This document shows, piece after piece, positions 10,093 to 24,425 of a DNA stretch of 24,668 nucleotides; the first letter of the stretch is position 1, and every line of letters begins with the position of its first letter. The notes beneath the pieces are model-generated. The model saw only the letters and a program-made list of their open reading frames with translations, did no database searches and was not told where the DNA came from. This stretch comes from a virus. The stretch is from the IMG/VR virus record IMGVR_UViG_3300042868_004519, positions 1 to 24,668 of that record, one strand, 5' to 3'. Both the position numbers and the translations under genes were made by a program.

Positions 10093-11442
10093 ATGATTAT
10101 AATTGAGAATAGTTCAGATCTAAAATATCTGCAGAGAAGTATCGATGAACACGACAGTTTCTGGATTCCTGTGTATTCAGATACGTATAAACATTATACT
10201 CAAAATCAGATAAGTTTCATTTATATCTATAGTATAAAACATGATGAAGAATTTATTTTTTCAGCCCGTCATTACGATTGTTTGAGCCAGGATATCGAAC
10301 ATATACAACAACTTACAAGTCAGGCGAATATCTTTGTATTAGCTAAAAAACGTTTCAAAAAGTTCTATCAACATAAATGCTATGATGCTGACCTAATGGC
10401 ATGGTGGCAAACCGGTGCAATGCTACCGTTAAATGAAACAAATACCAATGCACATGATGTCTGGAACAGATGGTGGCATAACGAAACTGATACCAATGAT
10501 TGGTTGCCAATAACTCGCCATATCGAACGATGCCAGGCAATGCGTACGGAATTTATGAAAGCATATTCTGTATTTGAAATGACAGATGAGTTTCGTAATT
10601 ACGATGAATTGGCAATTGATACATTTTCAGAAATTGAACAAAATGGTTTGCAAATAAACCAAGAAATATTTACAGAAAAATTTCAGACAAATGGAATACA
10701 TGATAACAAAGTTTTTACAGAATATAATTTATATACTACAACGGGACGACCTTCGAATAAGTTTGGCGGTATTAATTACGCGGCTCTAAACAAAGAAGAT
10801 GGTTCACGAGAAGCATTTCAATCACGATTTGAAAATGGCTTTTTATTGGAATATGATTACGATGCATTCCATGTACGGTTGATTGCAGAGTTAATTGGAT
10901 ATCAGTTACCATATGAATCAATACATACGTATTTTGGCCGGCAATATTTTAACAAGCCAGAATTAAGCAATGATGAATATGAACAATCCAAGCAGATCAC
11001 ATTTCGTTTGTTATATGGAGGTATAGACAAAGACTTTGAGCAAATACCTTTCTTTGGTGAAACTAAACAGTATATTCAGTCGTTATGGAAATCATTCAAT
11101 CGTAAAGGTTATGTGGAAACGCCTAGGCTAAAACGTAAATTATACAAGTCACATTTACCAGATATGAATGCTAACAAGTTGTTTAATTACATATTACAGG
11201 CAACTGAAACAGAACATAACTTGGTGATATTAAACAAGGTAAATACAGCAATGAAGCGTCATAACAGCAAATTAATTCTGTATACATATGACTCGTTACT
11301 GTTTGACTATGATATGAATGATGGTCGTCGTTTCATTATTCAAATGCAAAACATTTTATCTGAACACGGTAAATTTCCAGTAAAGATTAAAGCTGGTACA
11401 AACTATCATGCCATGTCTGACATGACTTCTCGTGTAATTTAA
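10093..11442 (+). CDS. Family A (Pol I-like) DNA polymerase, polymerase domain without visible 3'-5' exonuclease
   Basis: This 449-residue enzyme would replicate the phage genome. The palm and fingers motifs are recognisable: TTTGRPS (216-221), motif A EYDYDAFHVR (catalytic D255), motif B KQITFRLLYGG (K300, F304, Y308, equivalent to E. coli Pol I K758, F762, Y766), N365/Q369, and motif C YTYDSLLFD (D400). Key departures: motif A has His260 where Pol I has the steric-gate Glu710, motif B has Tyr296 where Pol I has Arg754, and motif C reads YDS instead of HDE. The first ~200 residues show no exonuclease DxE motif, and Pol I-type enzymes are normally longer, so a separate exonuclease gene may exist elsewhere. 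No upstream in-frame start exists before the stop at 10054; no SD is present. T4 itself uses a family B polymerase. Confidence 0.82.
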   Translation: MIIIENSSDLKYLQRSIDEHDSFWIPVYSDTYKHYTQNQISFIYIYSIKHDEEFIFSARHYDCLSQDIEHIQQLTSQANIFVLAKKRFKKFYQHKCYDADLMAWWQTGAMLPLNETNTNAHDVWNRWWHNETDTNDWLPITRHIERCQAMRTEFMKAYSVFEMTDEFRNYDELAIDTFSEIEQNGLQINQEIFTEKFQTNGIHDNKVFTEYNLYTTTGRPSNKFGGINYAALNKEDGSREAFQSRFENGFLLEYDYDAFHVRLIAELIGYQLPYESIHTYFGRQYFNKPELSNDEYEQSKQITFRLLYGGIDKDFEQIPFFGETKQYIQSLWKSFNRKGYVETPRLKRKLYKSHLPDMNANKLFNYILQATETEHNLVILNKVNTAMKRHNSKLILYTYDSLLFDYDMNDGRRFIIQMQNILSEHGKFPVKIKAGTNYHAMSDMTSRVI

Positions 11443-11465: not shown

Positions 11466-12713
11466 ATGAATTTTGATCACATTGTAAGAGAATGGTTTTA
11501 CAGACTACCTAAAGGGTATGCTGATGCACCATATACCACGGAGGAGTTGGCAATACTAGATGAAGTATTAGCTGAGAACGGCGTTAACTTGAATGAAGTT
11601 GATGAATTGGATCAAGCATTTTTAGACGCCGAGCCAGTAGAAGAACTTTATGAATCAGCTGATTCGGTTAAAATTACATTAGCAGATATTAAAAAACTTT
11701 TAGATAATCCTGTTGTAAAATTAGATAACGATGATTTAATAAAAATACATCGCGTTATCGCAAATTCAGCTTTCAAAGAAAAAACAATTAATTATCTTAT
11801 ATCAAAAAACATTGCTCCAGAAAATTATAGTTTAGGTAACAATGCAGTTGACATCGTATTTAATAAAATATCATCATTGCCAGATGTGACCGATGTTATT
11901 AAATATTTTGATTCACCGAAAGATTTGACCTGGAAAGAAGATGGCCGTGGAAATATAAAAGACATAACAGGACTATCAGATACATCAATTGGTGAAATGA
12001 TAAAAATACAACCAGGGCCTGATGCTGGAGGAAGTGCTACCGGACCAGCTGAGATTGCATTTTCATTATTATTCAAAAATGTAAAAAATGCTACCGGCGG
12101 CGGTGATTTAGAGCTCAATGGTAAAACTGTTGAGTTAAAAGGTAAAGGTGGTCGTTTAGGTGTACAATCTGGTCGTGGCATGGAATTGAATTTGAAATCT
12201 AGTTTTATTGGCCAGATGATGAAATCAGGACCAAATAATGATTATACTGTAGAAGAAGATGCTGCTGATTTTTTTGCCGATGCTAAAAATACAAATATAG
12301 CTTATGCAATATATAACGCATATCATATTTTAGTTAAAAAAGGACAAATGCCAGAAGACGAATTTATCACAGAAATACAGGATGGGTTGACAAATATTTA
12401 TTTTGATAAAGATGAAGTCGTTAAAAAATATTTTAATAATAATACAAAATGGACAGATCTAAAATCAATCGGCCGGCAATTGGTAAAAACTAATTTAGAT
12501 GCTTATTTAACAAAAATCGGTAATGATATTATCATATTTCATCGTTTTAGAGATAGTGGAAAAACGCCATCGACAGATTTATCATTTATCGTTGTAGATA
12601 AAACCGAAATTGATTCGGTTATCGATAGTGGAGTTATTACATTAGGGTCTTCATATCCTGAAAGTAGTATTTTATGGCATAATACAAATCCTTCGGTAAA
12701 ATTAAATATATAA
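11466..12713 (+). CDS. PD-(D/E)XK nuclease-like protein with an acidic N-terminal domain
   Basis: The 415-residue protein has two parts. The first ~65 residues (EWFYRLPKGYADAPYTTEEL, then a Leu/Glu/Asp-rich stretch ending EELYESADS) look like a separate helical domain. L61-Y62-E63 followed by Ser is an acceptable prohead-protease site, so this could be a removable capsid-targeting segment. In the middle, GPAEIAFSLLF (Glu196), GGGDLELNG (Asp214) and TVELKGKGGRL (Glu223-x-Lys225) give the order and spacing of a PD-(D/E)XK nuclease: helix Glu, Asp, about nine residues, then E-x-K. Such folds occur in restriction, Holliday-junction and repair nucleases. Its neighbours are the polymerase and the small leader-bearing genes. 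Nuclease activity is inferred from the motif only; substrate unknown. Confidence 0.6.
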   Translation: MNFDHIVREWFYRLPKGYADAPYTTEELAILDEVLAENGVNLNEVDELDQAFLDAEPVEELYESADSVKITLADIKKLLDNPVVKLDNDDLIKIHRVIANSAFKEKTINYLISKNIAPENYSLGNNAVDIVFNKISSLPDVTDVIKYFDSPKDLTWKEDGRGNIKDITGLSDTSIGEMIKIQPGPDAGGSATGPAEIAFSLLFKNVKNATGGGDLELNGKTVELKGKGGRLGVQSGRGMELNLKSSFIGQMMKSGPNNDYTVEEDAADFFADAKNTNIAYAIYNAYHILVKKGQMPEDEFITEIQDGLTNIYFDKDEVVKKYFNNNTKWTDLKSIGRQLVKTNLDAYLTKIGNDIIIFHRFRDSGKTPSTDLSFIVVDKTEIDSVIDSGVITLGSSYPESSILWHNTNPSVKLNI

Positions 12714-13127: not shown

Positions 13128-13217
13128 ACGGAAAACAAAATGAACTTGCAAGAAAATTATAGAAGGCTATTCAAAGGTAGAATATCAAGTAATGATAAAA
13201 TGTTAATAGAAGCTAAT
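13128..13217 (+). repeat. Leader-coding repeat, copy A
   Basis: This segment holds the ACGGAAAACAAA ribosome-site region plus the leader codons of the gene at 13140. It is nearly identical in DNA to copy B at 13754-13844, including silent positions, except for a 3-base gap before GAAGCTAAT and a few substitutions. That points to recent duplication of leader and untranslated region together. Confidence 0.8.
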
Positions 13218-13736
13218 GAAGTATATCTTTTTTCTGGTTATAAACGATTTATGGATCAAAAAGCTGTCAATGTATTCAAAAAGTATGGAATAGATAAGTC
13301 TGCTTTAAATCGTAAATATGATCCAAATGAAGATATAGTTGAATTTAGAATTGATTCAATAGATTCAAATACATTGCAAAAGATTGCTGACGAATTAGAA
13401 CGCGTTGATCGCGGTACCGGTGAATATGGTGGATACATAGAAGAAGGTAGAATATCTAGCAATGATAAAATGTTAATTTCAGAAGCTAATAGTGAAGCTG
13501 CGAAAGAAATTTATGATAATCCTAAAATAGAACGCCAACTTAGCCGCTTACCAGGGTATGAATCAATTACACCTGGTAAGACAAAAAAAGAAGTGTACAT
13601 ATATTTTAACAAAGAATCTGGTGCAAAATTAGCTGTTAAAGCATTAGAAAAACTTGTACCCGGGCCAAACTACGAATATTATAAAGAAAATGACCCTGGT
13701 TACTCTCAACCAATGTTTGTAATTGCAGTTCAATAA
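13140..13736 (+). CDS. Putative capsid-targeted protein with two leader/cleavage segments
   Basis: The 198-residue protein begins MNLQENYRRLFKGRISSNDK, then MLIEAN; L22-I23-E24 followed by Ala fits the (I/L)-x-E rule of T4 gp21 prohead protease. At residues 103-117 the text GRISSNDKMLISEAN appears again, with I113-S114-E115 followed by Ala. Cutting at both would release two products of about 91 and 83 residues. Each has a similar order of elements: a helix-rich start, a beta strand (IVEFRID / VYIYFN), and a helix (LQKIADELERV / LAVKALEKLV). The internal copy lacks the first half (MNLQENYRRLFK), as expected if two adjacent genes fused through their leader repeats. The upstream GGAAAAC region is a weak ribosome site shared with the next gene. 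The mature parts match nothing I know; delivery into the host cell is inference. Confidence 0.75.
   Translation: MNLQENYRRLFKGRISSNDKMLIEANEVYLFSGYKRFMDQKAVNVFKKYGIDKSALNRKYDPNEDIVEFRIDSIDSNTLQKIADELERVDRGTGEYGGYIEEGRISSNDKMLISEANSEAAKEIYDNPKIERQLSRLPGYESITPGKTKKEVYIYFNKESGAKLAVKALEKLVPGPNYEYYKENDPGYSQPMFVIAVQ
13446..13490 (+). repeat. Leader-coding repeat, copy C (internal, partial)
   Basis: This in-frame partial copy lies inside the gene at 13140. Its 5' part (GGTAGAATATC) matches copy A, while its 3' part (TTTCAGAAGCTAAT) matches copy B. It encodes only the cleavage-site half of the leader. The patchwork suggests recombination between leader repeats. Confidence 0.8.
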
Positions 13737-13753
13737 TAATAAAATTTAATTAT

Positions 13754-13844
13754 CGGAAACAAAATGAACTTACAAGAAAATTATAGAAGGCTATTCAAAG
13801 GACGTTTATCTAGCAATGATAAAATGGTAATTTCAGAAGCTAAT
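13754..13844 (+). repeat. Leader-coding repeat, copy B
   Basis: Copy B carries CGGAAACAAAATGAACTT and the following leader codons of the gene at 13764. GAAAATTATAGAAGGCTATT and other stretches are identical to copy A, so the two leaders diverged recently while the downstream parts of the proteins are unrelated in sequence. Confidence 0.8.
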
Positions 13845-14021
13845 TCCGCAATGCGTTTGAAATCTGATATTGATCGAACATGGAAAACAGCAGATGATGT
13901 AGCCGGTGATATGCAACAATGGTTATCAGGTATTGCTTCTACAGATGAAGACATGTACAATAAAGTAATGGATATCTTAGCAAACCTAGCAGATAATTTT
14001 GAGCCATATAACGAAATGTAA
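13764..14021 (+). CDS. Putative capsid-targeted small protein
   Basis: The 85-residue product begins MNLQENYRRLFKGRLSSNDK, then MVISEANS; I23-S24-E25 followed by Ala is a good prohead-protease site, which would leave a mature part of 60 residues. The mature part is acidic and helical (DIDRTWKTADDVAGDMQQWL, DEDMYNKVMDILANLADNF) and matches no family I recognise. No ATATTTAT core is present in the 27-base gap upstream, only an AT-rich variant (AAATTTAAT), so it may be read through from the gene at 13140. The ribosome-site region (CGGAAAC) is shared with that gene. In T4, internal head proteins of this size are packaged with DNA and act early in infection; that role is an analogy here. Confidence 0.75.
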   Translation: MNLQENYRRLFKGRLSSNDKMVISEANSAMRLKSDIDRTWKTADDVAGDMQQWLSGIASTDEDMYNKVMDILANLADNFEPYNEM

Positions 14022-14436: not shown

Positions 14437-15228
14437 ATGGCAATTGATTTAGATGCAATTAAACGTAAACTTAGCCAGTTACAGACAGTAGGCACCCGCC
14501 AAAACAATTTGTGGAAACCCGAGCCTGGTAAACAAACAATTAGAATCGTACCTTATCAGTACGACAAAGAAAATCCATTTCAGGAATTGTATTTTCATTA
14601 CGATTTAGGTAAGAAAAATTTCTTATCACCAGTAACTTATGGAAAGCCAGATCCAGTAGTTGAATTTGCTGAGAAATTAAAATCATCAGGTAATTCAGAT
14701 GAATGGAAACTTGGCAAGAAGCTTGAACCGAAAATGAGAACTTATGTTCCTATCATTGTTCGTGGTAAAGAATCTGAAGGAGTTAAGTTCTGGGGATTTG
14801 GTAAAAATGTTTATACAGAGTTGTTAGGATTTATTGCAGATCCAGATTACGGTGATCTTTCTGATCCAATGAATGGACGTGATATCGTTGTTGAATTTAC
14901 GCCATCTGAAGGCGGAGGTTCATATCCTAAAACGACAATTCGTGTTAAACCAAATGCAACGCCATTAACTGAAGATAAAAATGTTGCATTGGCAGTAGCA
15001 AAAAATCAGCAAAGTCTTTCTGATATTTTCAAAGAACCAACTTATGATGAATTGAAAGAAGCATTGCAAAAATGGTTAGATCCAGAGTCTTCAGAAGAAG
15101 AAACAACGACTGCCAAGACAGATGAGTTTGAAGATGATTTTGATGCAGAACCAAAATCAAATGTTAAACCACCTGTAAACAAAGTAGATGATGTTTCATC
15201 TGCATTCGACGCGTTATTTAACGATTAA
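14437..15228 (+). CDS. 32: Single-stranded DNA-binding protein, gp32-like
   Basis: The 263-residue protein coats single-stranded DNA during replication and recombination and recruits partners. The N-terminus (DLDAIKRKLSQLQ), NNLWKPEPGKQTIRIVPYQY, LYFHYDLGKKNFLSP, the aromatic-rich core (FWGFGKNVYTELLGFIADPD) and a Lys-rich helix match the gp32 plan. The C-terminal tail is very acidic (EEETTTAKTDEFEDDFDAEP) and ends VSSAFDALFND, as in gp32, where the tail contacts other replication proteins. There is no cysteine anywhere, so the zinc site of T4 gp32 (one His and three Cys) is missing. A perfect AAGGAG precedes the ATG, and the next gene, uvsX, starts 11 bases after the stop. Co-expression with uvsX is very likely. 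Confidence 0.9.
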   Translation: MAIDLDAIKRKLSQLQTVGTRQNNLWKPEPGKQTIRIVPYQYDKENPFQELYFHYDLGKKNFLSPVTYGKPDPVVEFAEKLKSSGNSDEWKLGKKLEPKMRTYVPIIVRGKESEGVKFWGFGKNVYTELLGFIADPDYGDLSDPMNGRDIVVEFTPSEGGGSYPKTTIRVKPNATPLTEDKNVALAVAKNQQSLSDIFKEPTYDELKEALQKWLDPESSEEETTTAKTDEFEDDFDAEPKSNVKPPVNKVDDVSSAFDALFND

Positions 15229-15239
15229 GGAGTTACATT

Positions 15240-16379
15240 ATGTCAAAAACAAAAAGCGATCTACGCGACGACCTAGCGGTTACATTAGCAGATAATCTTA
15301 ACAAGAAATTCAAAAATACAGGATTCAAAACTGCATTTTTTCTTGATAGTGATACTGATGCACCGAGCGAGGTACGTGGTTGGGTTGATTCGGGGTCAGA
15401 TATGCTTGACCTAGCAATTTCAAATAGACCCAATGGAGGATTTCCGGTAGGCCGTATAATTGAGATCACAGGACTAGAAGCATCAGGTAAATCATTATTA
15501 GCAGCTCATGCATTAGCCAATACACAAAAAGAAGGTGGTATGGCAGTGTATATTGATACAGAAAATGCAGTTAGTAGAGAATTCCTTGAAGCGATTGGTT
15601 TAGATCTTGAAAAAATGTTATATGTGCCATTGGATACTGTTGAGGACATATTTGAAGCTATTGAAAGCATCGTTGAATCAGTTCGTAAATCAAACAAAGA
15701 CCGATTGGTAACAATTGTAGTAGACTCTGTAATGGGCGCATCTACGAAAATTGAAATGGCTAAAGAATTTGATAAAGATGGTTATGCAACATCAAAGGCA
15801 ATTATTTTGTCAAAAGGTATGCGTAAGATTACAAATATGATTGGCCGTGAAAAGATTTGTTTGATATTTACAAACCAGTTACGTACAAGACTAGGTGTGG
15901 CATTCGGCGATCCGTATACAACCTCAGGTGGTAAAGCAATTCCATTTCATGCATCGGTTAGGTTACGATTAAAATCAGTTGGTCAAATTAAAGCTAAGAT
16001 TGATGGCGTAGAACAAGTCATCGGTATTAAAACAAGATGCCAAGTGATTAAAAACAGAATGGGTCCACCATTAAAATCAATTGACTATGATATCTATTTT
16101 GAGTCTGGTATTGATAACTATGGTGGATGGTTAAATGTTATGAAGGATTACAAGTTAGTTGCTCAGTCAGGTGCATGGTATACATTCTTACGCAAAGATG
16201 GTACTGATGTGAAATTCCAATCAAAAGATTTTGAAAAGAAAATCAAGGAAGATGATACATTGCGTCAAGAAATTTATGATGCTATCTGTAGTGCATATAT
16301 CTTAAAATATCAACCAGGGCAAGATTTTGGAATTGATGATATCGAAATTGATGATGAATTTATTAGCGAAGAAGGATAA
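15240..16379 (+). CDS. uvsX: UvsX/RecA-type recombinase
   Basis: This 379-residue ATPase forms filaments on single-stranded DNA and drives strand exchange, which in T4-like phages starts replication forks. Walker A is GLEASGKS (residues 78-85), Walker B is LVTIVVDS (156-163), followed by a RecA-like TNQLRTRLG (211-219) and TTSGGKAIPFHASVRLRL (227-244). Length is close to T4 UvsX (391). AAGGAG (15227-15232) overlaps the gp32-like stop codon and gives a good start at 15240. The C-terminus is acidic (DDIEIDDEFISEEG), as in RecA proteins. Its stop overlaps the next start (TAATG), so translation of the nuclease downstream is coupled to it. Confidence 0.93.
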   Translation: MSKTKSDLRDDLAVTLADNLNKKFKNTGFKTAFFLDSDTDAPSEVRGWVDSGSDMLDLAISNRPNGGFPVGRIIEITGLEASGKSLLAAHALANTQKEGGMAVYIDTENAVSREFLEAIGLDLEKMLYVPLDTVEDIFEAIESIVESVRKSNKDRLVTIVVDSVMGASTKIEMAKEFDKDGYATSKAIILSKGMRKITNMIGREKICLIFTNQLRTRLGVAFGDPYTTSGGKAIPFHASVRLRLKSVGQIKAKIDGVEQVIGIKTRCQVIKNRMGPPLKSIDYDIYFESGIDNYGGWLNVMKDYKLVAQSGAWYTFLRKDGTDVKFQSKDFEKKIKEDDTLRQEIYDAICSAYILKYQPGQDFGIDDIEIDDEFISEEG

Positions 16380-17428
16380 TGAAAGCTAGATATTTCGATT
16401 TACTACGAGAAGTTGAACGTGATCGTGAACAAGGTACGGGGTCAAGTAAGAACAGCCATATTCTAATTATCGACGGCTTGAATACATTCATTAGGGTGTT
16501 TTCGGCCGTCCCGGCCTTGAATGATGATGGAATGCATATTGGAGGTGTAACAGGCTTTTTACGGTCTGTTGCATCTGCAATACGCCAACATAAACCAACA
16601 AGATGTATCATTGTATTTGATGGTAAGGGAGGTTCTGCTAGACGTAAACAATTGTATCCTAACTATAAAGCAAATCGAGCAGTAAAAACAGCATTCAATC
16701 GATACGCGGAGTTTGCATCATTACAGGATGAACAAGAGAGCATGAAAAAACAATTTGGTCGTATGATTGAATATTTGCAATGCTTACCTATCACAACAAT
16801 GGCAATTGATAATATCGAAGCTGATGATGCTATTGCATATATTGCAAACGAAATCTTTACAGAACCACAAAACCGAATTACAATTGTATCTACTGATAGA
16901 GACTTTTTACAGTTAGTAAATAATCGTATTACTGTATGGAGTCCTGTTAAAAAAATAATGTATACGCCAAATGTTATACGTGAAGAATTTGGATTAGATT
17001 CAAAAAATTATTTATTGTATAGAGCATTAACGGGTGATAAATCAGATAACATTCCAGGTGTTAATGGCATTGGTTTGAAAACGATGTTAAAACAGTTTCC
17101 GATAATGACAGAAGAAGCAGAAGTCGATGTTGATACATTTGTTGAATACGCTGAAACGGTTGATAAAAAATATAAAATACATGAAACCGTTGCACAGAAT
17201 AAAACTCAAATTGAATTGAATTACAATTTAATGCAGTTAAAAAACGTCGACATTAATGGTAATGCCAAAATGCTTATCATGAATCTCGTTGACAATGAAA
17301 TTAATAAAATGGATGTACTCTCATTTAAGCGTATGTTCATGGAAGACAAAATGTATACAGTTATAAAAGATCTGGATACATGGATGTCAACGGCATTTAA
17401 TTCATTAAATGCTTACAGAAATCTTTGA
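16379..17428 (+). CDS. rnh: 5'-3' exonuclease / flap endonuclease (T4 RNase H-like)
   Basis: This 349-residue metal-dependent nuclease would remove RNA primers and 5' flaps during lagging-strand synthesis. Acidic residues are all in place: IIDGLN (D32), VFDGKGGSARRKQLYPNYKA (D81), EADDAIAYIA (E147, D149, D150), STDRDFLQLV (D173, D175) and GDKSDNIPGVNGIG (D220, D223, then the helix-hairpin-helix region). T4 RNase H is 305 residues; this one has a short charged N-terminal extension of about 25 residues before the first strand. The start overlaps the uvsX stop by one base, so it is coupled. No separate polymerase-linked 5' nuclease is needed, because the family A polymerase in this window also lacks that domain. 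Confidence 0.93.
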   Translation: MKARYFDLLREVERDREQGTGSSKNSHILIIDGLNTFIRVFSAVPALNDDGMHIGGVTGFLRSVASAIRQHKPTRCIIVFDGKGGSARRKQLYPNYKANRAVKTAFNRYAEFASLQDEQESMKKQFGRMIEYLQCLPITTMAIDNIEADDAIAYIANEIFTEPQNRITIVSTDRDFLQLVNNRITVWSPVKKIMYTPNVIREEFGLDSKNYLLYRALTGDKSDNIPGVNGIGLKTMLKQFPIMTEEAEVDVDTFVEYAETVDKKYKIHETVAQNKTQIELNYNLMQLKNVDINGNAKMLIMNLVDNEINKMDVLSFKRMFMEDKMYTVIKDLDTWMSTAFNSLNAYRNL

Positions 17429-17457: not shown

Positions 17458-18813
17458 ATGACAGATAGATTAAGTTCATACGGTTACAGTTTTCAGATAA
17501 AAGTTATTACTGCTTTATTTACAGATAAAATGTTTTTACAGCAGATAGCCGATATCTTATTGCCTAGCTATTTTGAAAGTGATGCCAATAACTGGATCAT
17601 TACGATGATATTGGAATATAATAAAGAGTATAAATCAACTCCTACATTAGAAGTGATGAAGGTCAAGTTGGATGATGTGGAACATGACGTTCTTAAAGAA
17701 CAGATTAAAGCTCATCTTAAAGATGCTTGGAAATATACAGAAGCAGATGATCTGCAATTTATTAAACAGCAAGCAATTGACTTTTGTAAAAATCAGGAAA
17801 TCAAAAAAGCAATTCTTACATCGGTTGATCTTTTGAAACATGGCCGATATGAAGATATCAAAGCAAAAATTGATAATGCATTAAAAGCCGGTGGTGATAA
17901 AGATATTGGTCATGATTACATGACATCTATAGATTCGCGTTATACAGAAGCTGTACGATTTACAAAAGAAACGCCATGGGAAGTGATCAATGAATTGACA
18001 GATGGTGGATTAGGTAAAGGAGAATTAGGCGTATTCGTTGCACCAGCTGGTATTGGTAAGTCATGGGGTTTAATTAACATTGGCGCAAATGCTGTTAAGA
18101 AAGGATTGACAGTTGTACATTATACTTTAGAATTAAATGAAGCATATGTCGGTCTGCGATATGACTCTGTAATTACTGGTATTCCAAATCAGAATCTTAA
18201 ACATTATCAGTCTCAGGTTAAAGAAGAGCTTGAAAAATTAAATGGAGAGTTAATCATTAAATACTATCCGACAAAGACAGTATCGGTATTAGGTTTACGT
18301 GGTCATATTGAAAAATGTATCATGCAAGGTAAAAAGCCTGACATAGTAATTGTCGACTATGCTGATTTGTTAAGAGGTCATGGACAAGAAAAACGACATG
18401 AGTTAGAAGGAATATATGAGGACCTACGTGGTATGGCAGGTGAATATGAAATTCCTATATGGACGGCATCTCAAGCAAATCGTTCTGCATTAGAAGAAGA
18501 TGTTATCGGTGCTGAGAAGATTTCTGAATCATATGGTAAAGTAATGGTTGCTGACTTTGTAATATCATTATCTCGTAAGGTGCAAGATAAATTGGCAGGT
18601 ACAGGACGATGGCATGTCATTAAAAATCGTTTCGGTCCAGATGGTATTACATTGCCAAGTAAAATGAATACCTCTAATGGACAAATTCATATATATGCAG
18701 ATACTTCTGTCCAAGGCAAGGAGACCCAAAAGCAAATGGATAAAGGAGAAGAATTTACTCGTAAGATGTTATCGCGTAAATTCCAAGAAATTAACAATAG
18801 CGATTTTGGTTAA
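17458..18813 (+). CDS. 41: Replicative DNA helicase, DnaB/gp41-type
   Basis: The 451-residue enzyme is a hexameric 5'-3' helicase for the replication fork. The N-terminal helical domain (1-150) is followed by a RecA-type motor: Walker A APAGIGKS (195-202), HYTLELNE (about 221-228), Walker B DIVIVDYADLL (295-305), WTASQANRSA with Gln339, and KNRFGPDG with the likely arginine finger Arg391. Length is close to T4 gp41 (475) and bacterial DnaB. No primase domain or separate primase gene is in this window. There is no SD before the ATG, and a promoter-like element lies only 10 bases upstream. It ends the replication block that begins with the gp32-like gene. Confidence 0.92.
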   Translation: MTDRLSSYGYSFQIKVITALFTDKMFLQQIADILLPSYFESDANNWIITMILEYNKEYKSTPTLEVMKVKLDDVEHDVLKEQIKAHLKDAWKYTEADDLQFIKQQAIDFCKNQEIKKAILTSVDLLKHGRYEDIKAKIDNALKAGGDKDIGHDYMTSIDSRYTEAVRFTKETPWEVINELTDGGLGKGELGVFVAPAGIGKSWGLINIGANAVKKGLTVVHYTLELNEAYVGLRYDSVITGIPNQNLKHYQSQVKEELEKLNGELIIKYYPTKTVSVLGLRGHIEKCIMQGKKPDIVIVDYADLLRGHGQEKRHELEGIYEDLRGMAGEYEIPIWTASQANRSALEEDVIGAEKISESYGKVMVADFVISLSRKVQDKLAGTGRWHVIKNRFGPDGITLPSKMNTSNGQIHIYADTSVQGKETQKQMDKGEEFTRKMLSRKFQEINNSDFG

Positions 18814-21040: not shown

Positions 21041-21364
21041 ATGAATTTAAGAGAATCGTATCGGCGATTGTTTAAATCTAGACCATCTTCGAACGATGCA
21101 TTGTTATTAGAATCATCACGTAAACCTTTAACAGAAAATACAAAGATGAAAAAGTTTTTTACTGATCTATTAACTACTGCACAAGCGCAAGGAAAGTTTG
21201 AAGATGTTGTAAAATTTTTAGATGATGAATATGGCGTTTGGTTTACTGATGATGCTAAAATAACTCCGCAAGCTCTGCAATCTAAGATTAACCGATCCGA
21301 CTTTAGTTCAATGTCTAGTTCAGATATAAAAGATATTGAAAAGGAAGTAAAAAATATTTTATAA
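21041..21364 (+). CDS. Putative capsid-targeted small protein (distant leader copy)
   Basis: The 107-residue product begins MNLRESYRRLFKSRPSSNDA, then LLLESS. The layout is the same as for the genes at 13140 and 13764 but diverged: Q-to-R, N-to-S, K-to-A changes and the cleavage site L22-L23-E24 followed by Ser. A second possible site is L30-T31-E32 before Asn. The mature part is helical and charged (MKKFFTDLLTTAQAQGKFED, SDIKDIEKEVKNIL) and matches nothing I recognise. ATAAGGAAATAAT upstream provides a ribosome site. That this leader reappears 7 kb away, in front of unrelated downstream sequence, is the best evidence that it is a portable targeting signal and not a domain of one protein family. 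Confidence 0.72.
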   Translation: MNLRESYRRLFKSRPSSNDALLLESSRKPLTENTKMKKFFTDLLTTAQAQGKFEDVVKFLDDEYGVWFTDDAKITPQALQSKINRSDFSSMSSSDIKDIEKEVKNIL

Positions 21365-23948: not shown

Positions 23949-24425
23949 ATGGGTAGATACATTTCAACTAAACTATTTGAAAATTATTCTGTAGCAATTC
24001 GTCAATGGAAAGCTCAGCATTCTCATTGTCAGTTGTTACATGGTTATGCTTTGAAATTCAAAGTATGGTTTGCATCTAACGAACCATTAGAAGAAAATCA
24101 GTTAGATGATATGAATTGGATTGTCGACTATGGAGGTTTTAAGACACCGCCGGCCGGTAACGGTCTTAAAGATTGGATGGATCATATGTGGGATCATACT
24201 ACATTAATTCAAGCCAATGATCCATATCGCGATTTGTTTGAACAAATGCAAATGGAAGGTCTTTGTAAAGTACATTTTCTTGAGAAGATGGGAGCTGAGT
24301 CATGTGCTAAATTGGTATATGATAAGTTCAATGAAGTGTTATCAAAAACAGATGCCGGACGTTGCAAATGTATTAAAGTAGAATGTTTCGAAAACGATAA
24401 TAATTCAAGTATATATGAAGAATAA
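23949..24425 (+). CDS. queD: QueD / 6-pyruvoyl-tetrahydropterin synthase-like protein
   Basis: The 158-residue protein belongs to the T-fold pterin-synthase family. QueD makes 6-carboxy-tetrahydropterin, an early step to 7-deazaguanines used in queuosine tRNA and, in some phages, in modified DNA. Visible motifs are HSHCQLLHGY (His24, His26, catalytic-type Cys27, His31), WIVDYGGFK (Asp60), MWDHTTLI (Asp82-His83), GAESCAKLVYD (Glu117) and VECFEND (Glu145). In E. coli QueD the zinc ligands come from a CxxxHGH motif; here the last His is Tyr33, and His24 or His26 may take part instead. The end overlaps the next gene. Other genes of the pathway (folE, queE, queC) are not seen in this window. Confidence 0.82.
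   Translation: MGRYISTKLFENYSVAIRQWKAQHSHCQLLHGYALKFKVWFASNEPLEENQLDDMNWIVDYGGFKTPPAGNGLKDWMDHMWDHTTLIQANDPYRDLFEQMQMEGLCKVHFLEKMGAESCAKLVYDKFNEVLSKTDAGRCKCIKVECFENDNNSSIYEE

Follow-up and report, generated by a model that had tools for sequence, protein, structure and literature searches.

A divPolA1-type relative of family A DNA polymerases in a viral genome fragment and its family in other phages

The divergent polymerase and its domains

The window analysed here, a viral fragment of 24,668 bases (IMG/VR record IMGVR_UViG_3300042868_004519), contains a gene for a 449-aa protein that lies upstream of a set of replication genes (Table 1). By sequence and by predicted structure, this protein is a relative of the family A DNA polymerases. 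The Pfam profile DNA_pol_A matched it with an E value of 1.7e-11 and 44.1 bits, compared with a curated cut-off of 34.3 bits. A phmmer search of the PDB with the single protein gave no useful match, but a profile built from the window protein together with 76 relatives matched the structures of Klenow, Bst, and Taq. The AlphaFold2 model had a mean predicted local distance difference test (pLDDT) score of 93.2 and a predicted template modelling score of 0.89. The listed PDB matches were family A DNA polymerases. Those for which VIA was used to repeat the alignment were Pol I large fragments; residues 1–442 of the model paired with residues 301–876 of Bst with Z ~26–27 and a root-mean-square deviation of ~3.7–4.7. 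The pairing runs from residue 1 of the model onward, starting at residue 301 of Bst or 296 of Taq.

On the basis of this match, the N-terminal part of the protein has the layout of the exonuclease-like domain found in Bst or Taq. The original prediction, made from the sequence alone, saw no exonuclease motif in the N-terminal half, and our searches agree with this. In the Pfam scan, the exonuclease profile PF01612 had no match in the 449-aa protein, and comparison of the Klenow exonuclease domain with the window protein by hhalign and hmmsearch gave no signal outside the thumb base and no alignable exonuclease motifs. The same prediction called the polymerase minimal. This is correct for the thumb, which is the part mainly reduced, but not for the protein as a whole since the model spans an exonuclease-like domain, palm, and fingers. 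Between the thumb base and the TGR-motif Arg (R219) there are 30 residues, compared with 120 up to R668 in E. coli Pol I, and approximately 90 thumb residues are therefore missing.

Alignment to E. coli Pol I gave the correspondences D255=D705, H260=E710, R262=R712, Y296=R754, K300=K758, F304=F762, Y308=Y766, R219=R668, Q369=Q849, Y399=H881, D400=D882, and S401=E883. The register is the one first proposed, with D255, D400, K300, F304, and Y308 kept, His260 at the position of the steric-gate Glu, and Tyr296 at that of Arg754; this alignment showed neither a standard Glu gate nor an HDE motif at a shifted position. As a comparison, the window protein is like the Pol I large fragments (Klenow, Bst, and Taq) in its fold, the two Asp, and the residues equivalent to K758, F762, Y766, R668, and Q849. 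It differs from them in the shortened thumb and in the changes E710H, R754Y, H881Y, and E883S. The residues YDS, predicted to replace HDE in motif C, were read correctly. However, the Ser is not unusual, because the PolAs of the Twort-like herellevirus PMS2 and of Roseobacter phage CRP-738 have HDS at this motif, and we rejected it as a special sign.

Table 1. Features of the polymerase gene and of the genes downstream of it in the window.
Feature	Coordinates	Strand	Remarks
divPolA1-type family A polymerase relative	10093..11442	+	449 aa; DNA_pol_A 1.7e-11; AlphaFold2 model; Pol I structural matches
Exonuclease-like N-terminal domain, residues 1 to ~158	10093..10566	+	no exonuclease signature
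Thumb base, residues 165-197	10585..10683	+	IEQNGLQIN (181-189) aligns with Klenow IERNGVKID
Motif A DYDAFHVR	10855..10878	+	D255 (=D705), His260 at Glu710 gate
O-helix	10978..11019	+	Y296 (=R754), K300, F304, Y308, G309
Motif C Y399-D400-S401 (=H881-D882-E883)	11287..11295	+	
p128, conserved partner gene, 128 aa	12723..13109	+	TTG start, AAGGA upstream
gp32-type single-strand DNA binding protein	14437..15228	+	PF08804 1.4e-12; phrog_1192
UvsX/RecA recombinase	15240..16379	+	PF00154 6.7e-55; phrog_97
Separate Pol I-type 5'-3' exonuclease (5' nuclease)	16379..17428	+	PF02739 6.6e-36, PF01367 3.9e-11
DnaB-type replicative helicase	17458..18813	+	PF03796 8.8e-16

Conservation, kinship to divPolA1, and the partner gene p128

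We aligned 88 family members with identities to the window protein down to 26%. The IMG/VR relatives, as well as the p128 loci considered below, were drawn from the best-matching loci (the best 80 of each listing). D255, D257, H260, K300, F304, Y308, Y399, D400, and D405 are invariant in all 88 members and the equivalents of K758, F762, Y766, R668, and Q849 are also found in 88 of 88. Y296 is present in 79 members with Arg in eight others, and at position 401 there are 83 members with Ser and five with Ala. In comparisons with four relatives, the ratio of nonsynonymous to synonymous substitution rates (dN/dS) of the polymerase gene was 0.13–0.20. Because the odd active-site residues are conserved over 88 members, they are not the product of chance or sequencing error.

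Yutin et al. (2024; PMC11348598) reported divPolA1 from 14 phages, and Flavobacterium phage immuto (immuto_3-5A) belongs to the founding set. They describe it as a polymerase extra to the regular DNA polymerase, with a truncated thumb, an inactivated exonuclease, palm residues that are kept, and replication genes downstream; the main text of that paper does not mention the steric gate. The window protein shares 34% identity with immuto35A_1 across 88% of its length (E 3e-64). In a FastTree phylogeny, the tree placement called for by the original prediction, the two form one clade, apart from the regular PolAs, with a local support of 0.85. Like other divPolA1 proteins of ~440–450 aa, the window protein has a truncated thumb and keeps the palm catalytic residues, and replication genes lie downstream of it. 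It has in common with immuto35A_1 the His gate, the Tyr in place of R754, and the Tyr-Asp of motif C. Neither the His gate nor the Tyr before the motif C Asp was seen in any of the six regular PolAs or in the single divPolA2 compared. On the grounds of sequence and modelled fold, the window gene is a new member of the published divPolA1 family, carried by large T4-like phages beside a normal polymerase. Its lineage is separate from that of immuto: the regular polymerase of its long relatives is PolB and not PolA, motif C reads YDS instead of YDA, and its locus, unlike that of immuto, has a gene between the polymerase and p128, which we call p415.

In the window and its relatives the gene order is baseplate/tail, polymerase, sometimes p415, p128, gp32, UvsX, 5' nuclease, DnaB, and ribonucleotide reductase. 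We found p128 in 80 of the 87 relatives scanned, and wherever a p128 locus had 4.3 kb or more of upstream sequence (36 loci), the polymerase was upstream of p128. Among 50,697 phage records, p128 was confined to the same six records that had strong polymerase matches. Its product has a conserved stretch, HRKK..NTLYT.NALN, and an invariant W100, and its AlphaFold2 model had a pLDDT of 93.8. Searches with Pfam, PHROGs, a PDB profile, and fold comparison gave nothing confident for p128, the best VIA match (Z 6.1 over 61 residues) being in the noise range. The polymerase family itself was confirmed at 584 or more IMG/VR loci and at three in genome contigs. The wide spread, the partner gene p128, and the full conservation of His260 and Tyr399 are additions to the published picture of divPolA1, and hundreds of uncultured phages would by these counts carry a second polymerase of this type.

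Regular polymerases in the relatives and the probable role of the second polymerase

A regular polymerase was present in every relative that reached far enough downstream. Ten IMG/VR contigs (G001–G004, G011–G015, and G017) have PolB in open frames of 826–892 aa, Microcystis phage Mel-JY01 has a PolB frame of 855 aa at 23.7 kb from the divergent polymerase, and immuto has a full-length PolA of 777 aa with an exonuclease domain. The phage record LR756508 has pieces of PolB and a match to DnaE. A literature search for Mel-JY01 found nothing. In nine of the ten contigs PolB is 14.6–17.7 kb downstream of the divergent polymerase, and in the tenth the distance is 21.7 kb if the contig is circular. 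The three IMG/VR contigs in which PolB is absent extend only 2.8, 3.2, and 13.6 kb past the divergent polymerase on its downstream side. Because the window stops ~14 kb downstream, the simplest inference from these relatives is that PolB would be found just past its end.

Two other systems are similar in part. In Vibrio phage 1.063.O, divPolA2 (AUR84708) is likewise a shortened family A enzyme that exists as a second polymerase next to PolB; it differs in that Glu is kept at the gate in the alignment (DFKAFET), the N-terminal domain is another one, and the gene neighbourhood is variable (Yutin et al., 2024). Group 2.2 jumbo phages have a split Pol III alpha (PMC7824862) that is also a minimal second polymerase accompanying a family B replicase, but its fold is unrelated and it is encoded by two genes.

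We consider it probable that the window protein serves as a second family A polymerase beside the regular DNA polymerase, one that carries out short-patch synthesis with p128 and the 5' nuclease while PolB, encoded past the window end, would do the bulk replication. The conserved active-site residues argue that the protein is catalytically active. With the thumb reduced and no recognisable site for proofreading, it would be expected to make short, poorly processive patches without proofreading. In contrast to Pol I, the 5' nuclease is a separate gene in this phage, and p128 and this nuclease may work with the polymerase as if Pol I had been divided among several genes. Their shared operon also argues for work with gp32, UvsX, and the helicase, and candidate jobs are gap filling, lagging-strand maturation, and recombination-linked synthesis. 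Several points weigh against this proposal. The PolB of the window phage itself was not seen, as the record stops short of the expected position. The changed residues (E710, R754, H881, and E883) are all important in Klenow, and the activity could be weak or altered. To our knowledge, no activity of a divPolA1 protein has been described. Lastly, the neighbourhood of divPolA1 is reported to be more replication-operon-like than that of the regular polymerase (PMC11348598), and either of the two could for this reason be the main replicase.

There is a slim chance that the polymerase and p128 form a two-part enzyme, in which p128 replaces the thumb or clamps the polymerase to DNA and the His gate gives an unusual choice of sugar or substrate. 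Thioredoxin clamps T7 polymerase to DNA in this manner. If true, phages would have here a polymerase holoenzyme of a distinct kind. Two testable handles are provided by the invariant His gate and by p128, the first on sugar choice and the second on whether the missing thumb might be supplied in trans, and the cultured phage-host pairs of immuto and Mel-JY01 make knockouts and purified proteins feasible.

The original prediction suggested from the sequence that the changed residues could alter sugar selectivity, and for the His gate this is a candidate effect. Carried further, it would make the protein a user of ribonucleotides, either primase-like or RNA-synthesising, which we regard as unlikely. 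Glu710 is the steric gate of Pol I (PMC13228545) and is here an invariant His, and there are precedents for RNA polymerases with a family A fold, as in T7 and as discussed for divPolA2 (PMC11348598). The Ser of motif C, together with the lost Glu gate, had also prompted a T7 RNA polymerase-like or primase reading. However, Phe is kept at the 762 position (F304), His, being a bulky residue too, may still exclude a 2'-OH, and the structural matches listed are DNA polymerases with no RNA polymerase among them. In addition, a search of ten genomes or contigs found primase genes in seven, among them each of the three long phage records, and the three that lack one are fragments, so a primase role for the protein is not needed.

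The four changed active-site positions, the truncated thumb, and an exonuclease domain without signature would also be compatible with a catalytically dead or nearly dead subunit that acts structurally, either in the replisome or in recombination. This seems quite improbable because both metal-binding Asp and the equivalents of K758, F762, Y766, R668, and Q849 are kept in 88 of 88 members, which is not expected of a dead enzyme.

Very unlikely, in our assessment, is that the protein is the main or only replicative polymerase with its 3'-5' exonuclease split off into another gene. A complete polymerase, either a regular PolB or a full-length PolA, is found in the relatives, and this led us to reject the idea; thumb loss speaks against long processive synthesis, and the window genes that were scanned included no recognisable separate 3'-5' exonuclease. 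The precedent cited for such a split in family A, Rhodothermus phage RM378, does have polymerase and exonuclease in separate genes, but they are of family B: RM378p092 matched PF00136 (DNA_pol_B, 2.2e-33) and p024 matched PF03104, a PolB-type exonuclease. We therefore rejected the analogy. Equally remote is a translesion polymerase for PolB stalled on damaged DNA; the lack of recognisable proofreading, an operon shared with UvsX and gp32, and retention as an extra polymerase would suit it, but family A translesion enzymes such as Pol theta and Pol nu have insertions whereas the window protein has deletions.

Other genes of the locus and its relatives

The gene p415 (11466–12713) was found in 42 of the loci scanned. 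Its product contains LELNGKTVELKGKGGRLG, which resembles a PD-(D/E)XK nuclease motif; Pfam gave no match for p415 and PHROGs no confident match.

Three otherwise dissimilar open reading frames of the window (13140–13736, 13764–14021, and 21041–21364) have in common the N-terminal tag MNLQENYRRLFKGRxSSNDxxLLxEA, and the same type of tag occurs in L095, L004, L160, L003, L001, and L025. A regular-expression scan found it in 19 distinct proteins of 85–402 aa at 11 loci, with at most four per locus, and many of the tagged frames are directly after p128. Like the capsid targeting sequence of T4, the tag might act in targeting or as a propeptide.

In LR756508, which is a 484-kb record, the PolB matches at 260623–266900 are in two separate frames of 1022 and 625 aa (L073 and L074). 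This PolB may be a split or interrupted gene; the DnaE match is at another place in the record.

The original prediction also raised the idea that the changed residues accommodate modified nucleotides. DpdA-type 7-deazaguanine modification is installed after replication, and because of this it would need no special deoxynucleotide pocket in a polymerase. A PTPS/QueD-like gene at 23949–24425 (PF01242, 4.1e-11) is a hint of queuosine or 7-deazaguanine metabolism in the window phage, and immuto has a fuller queuosine set that includes DpdA.
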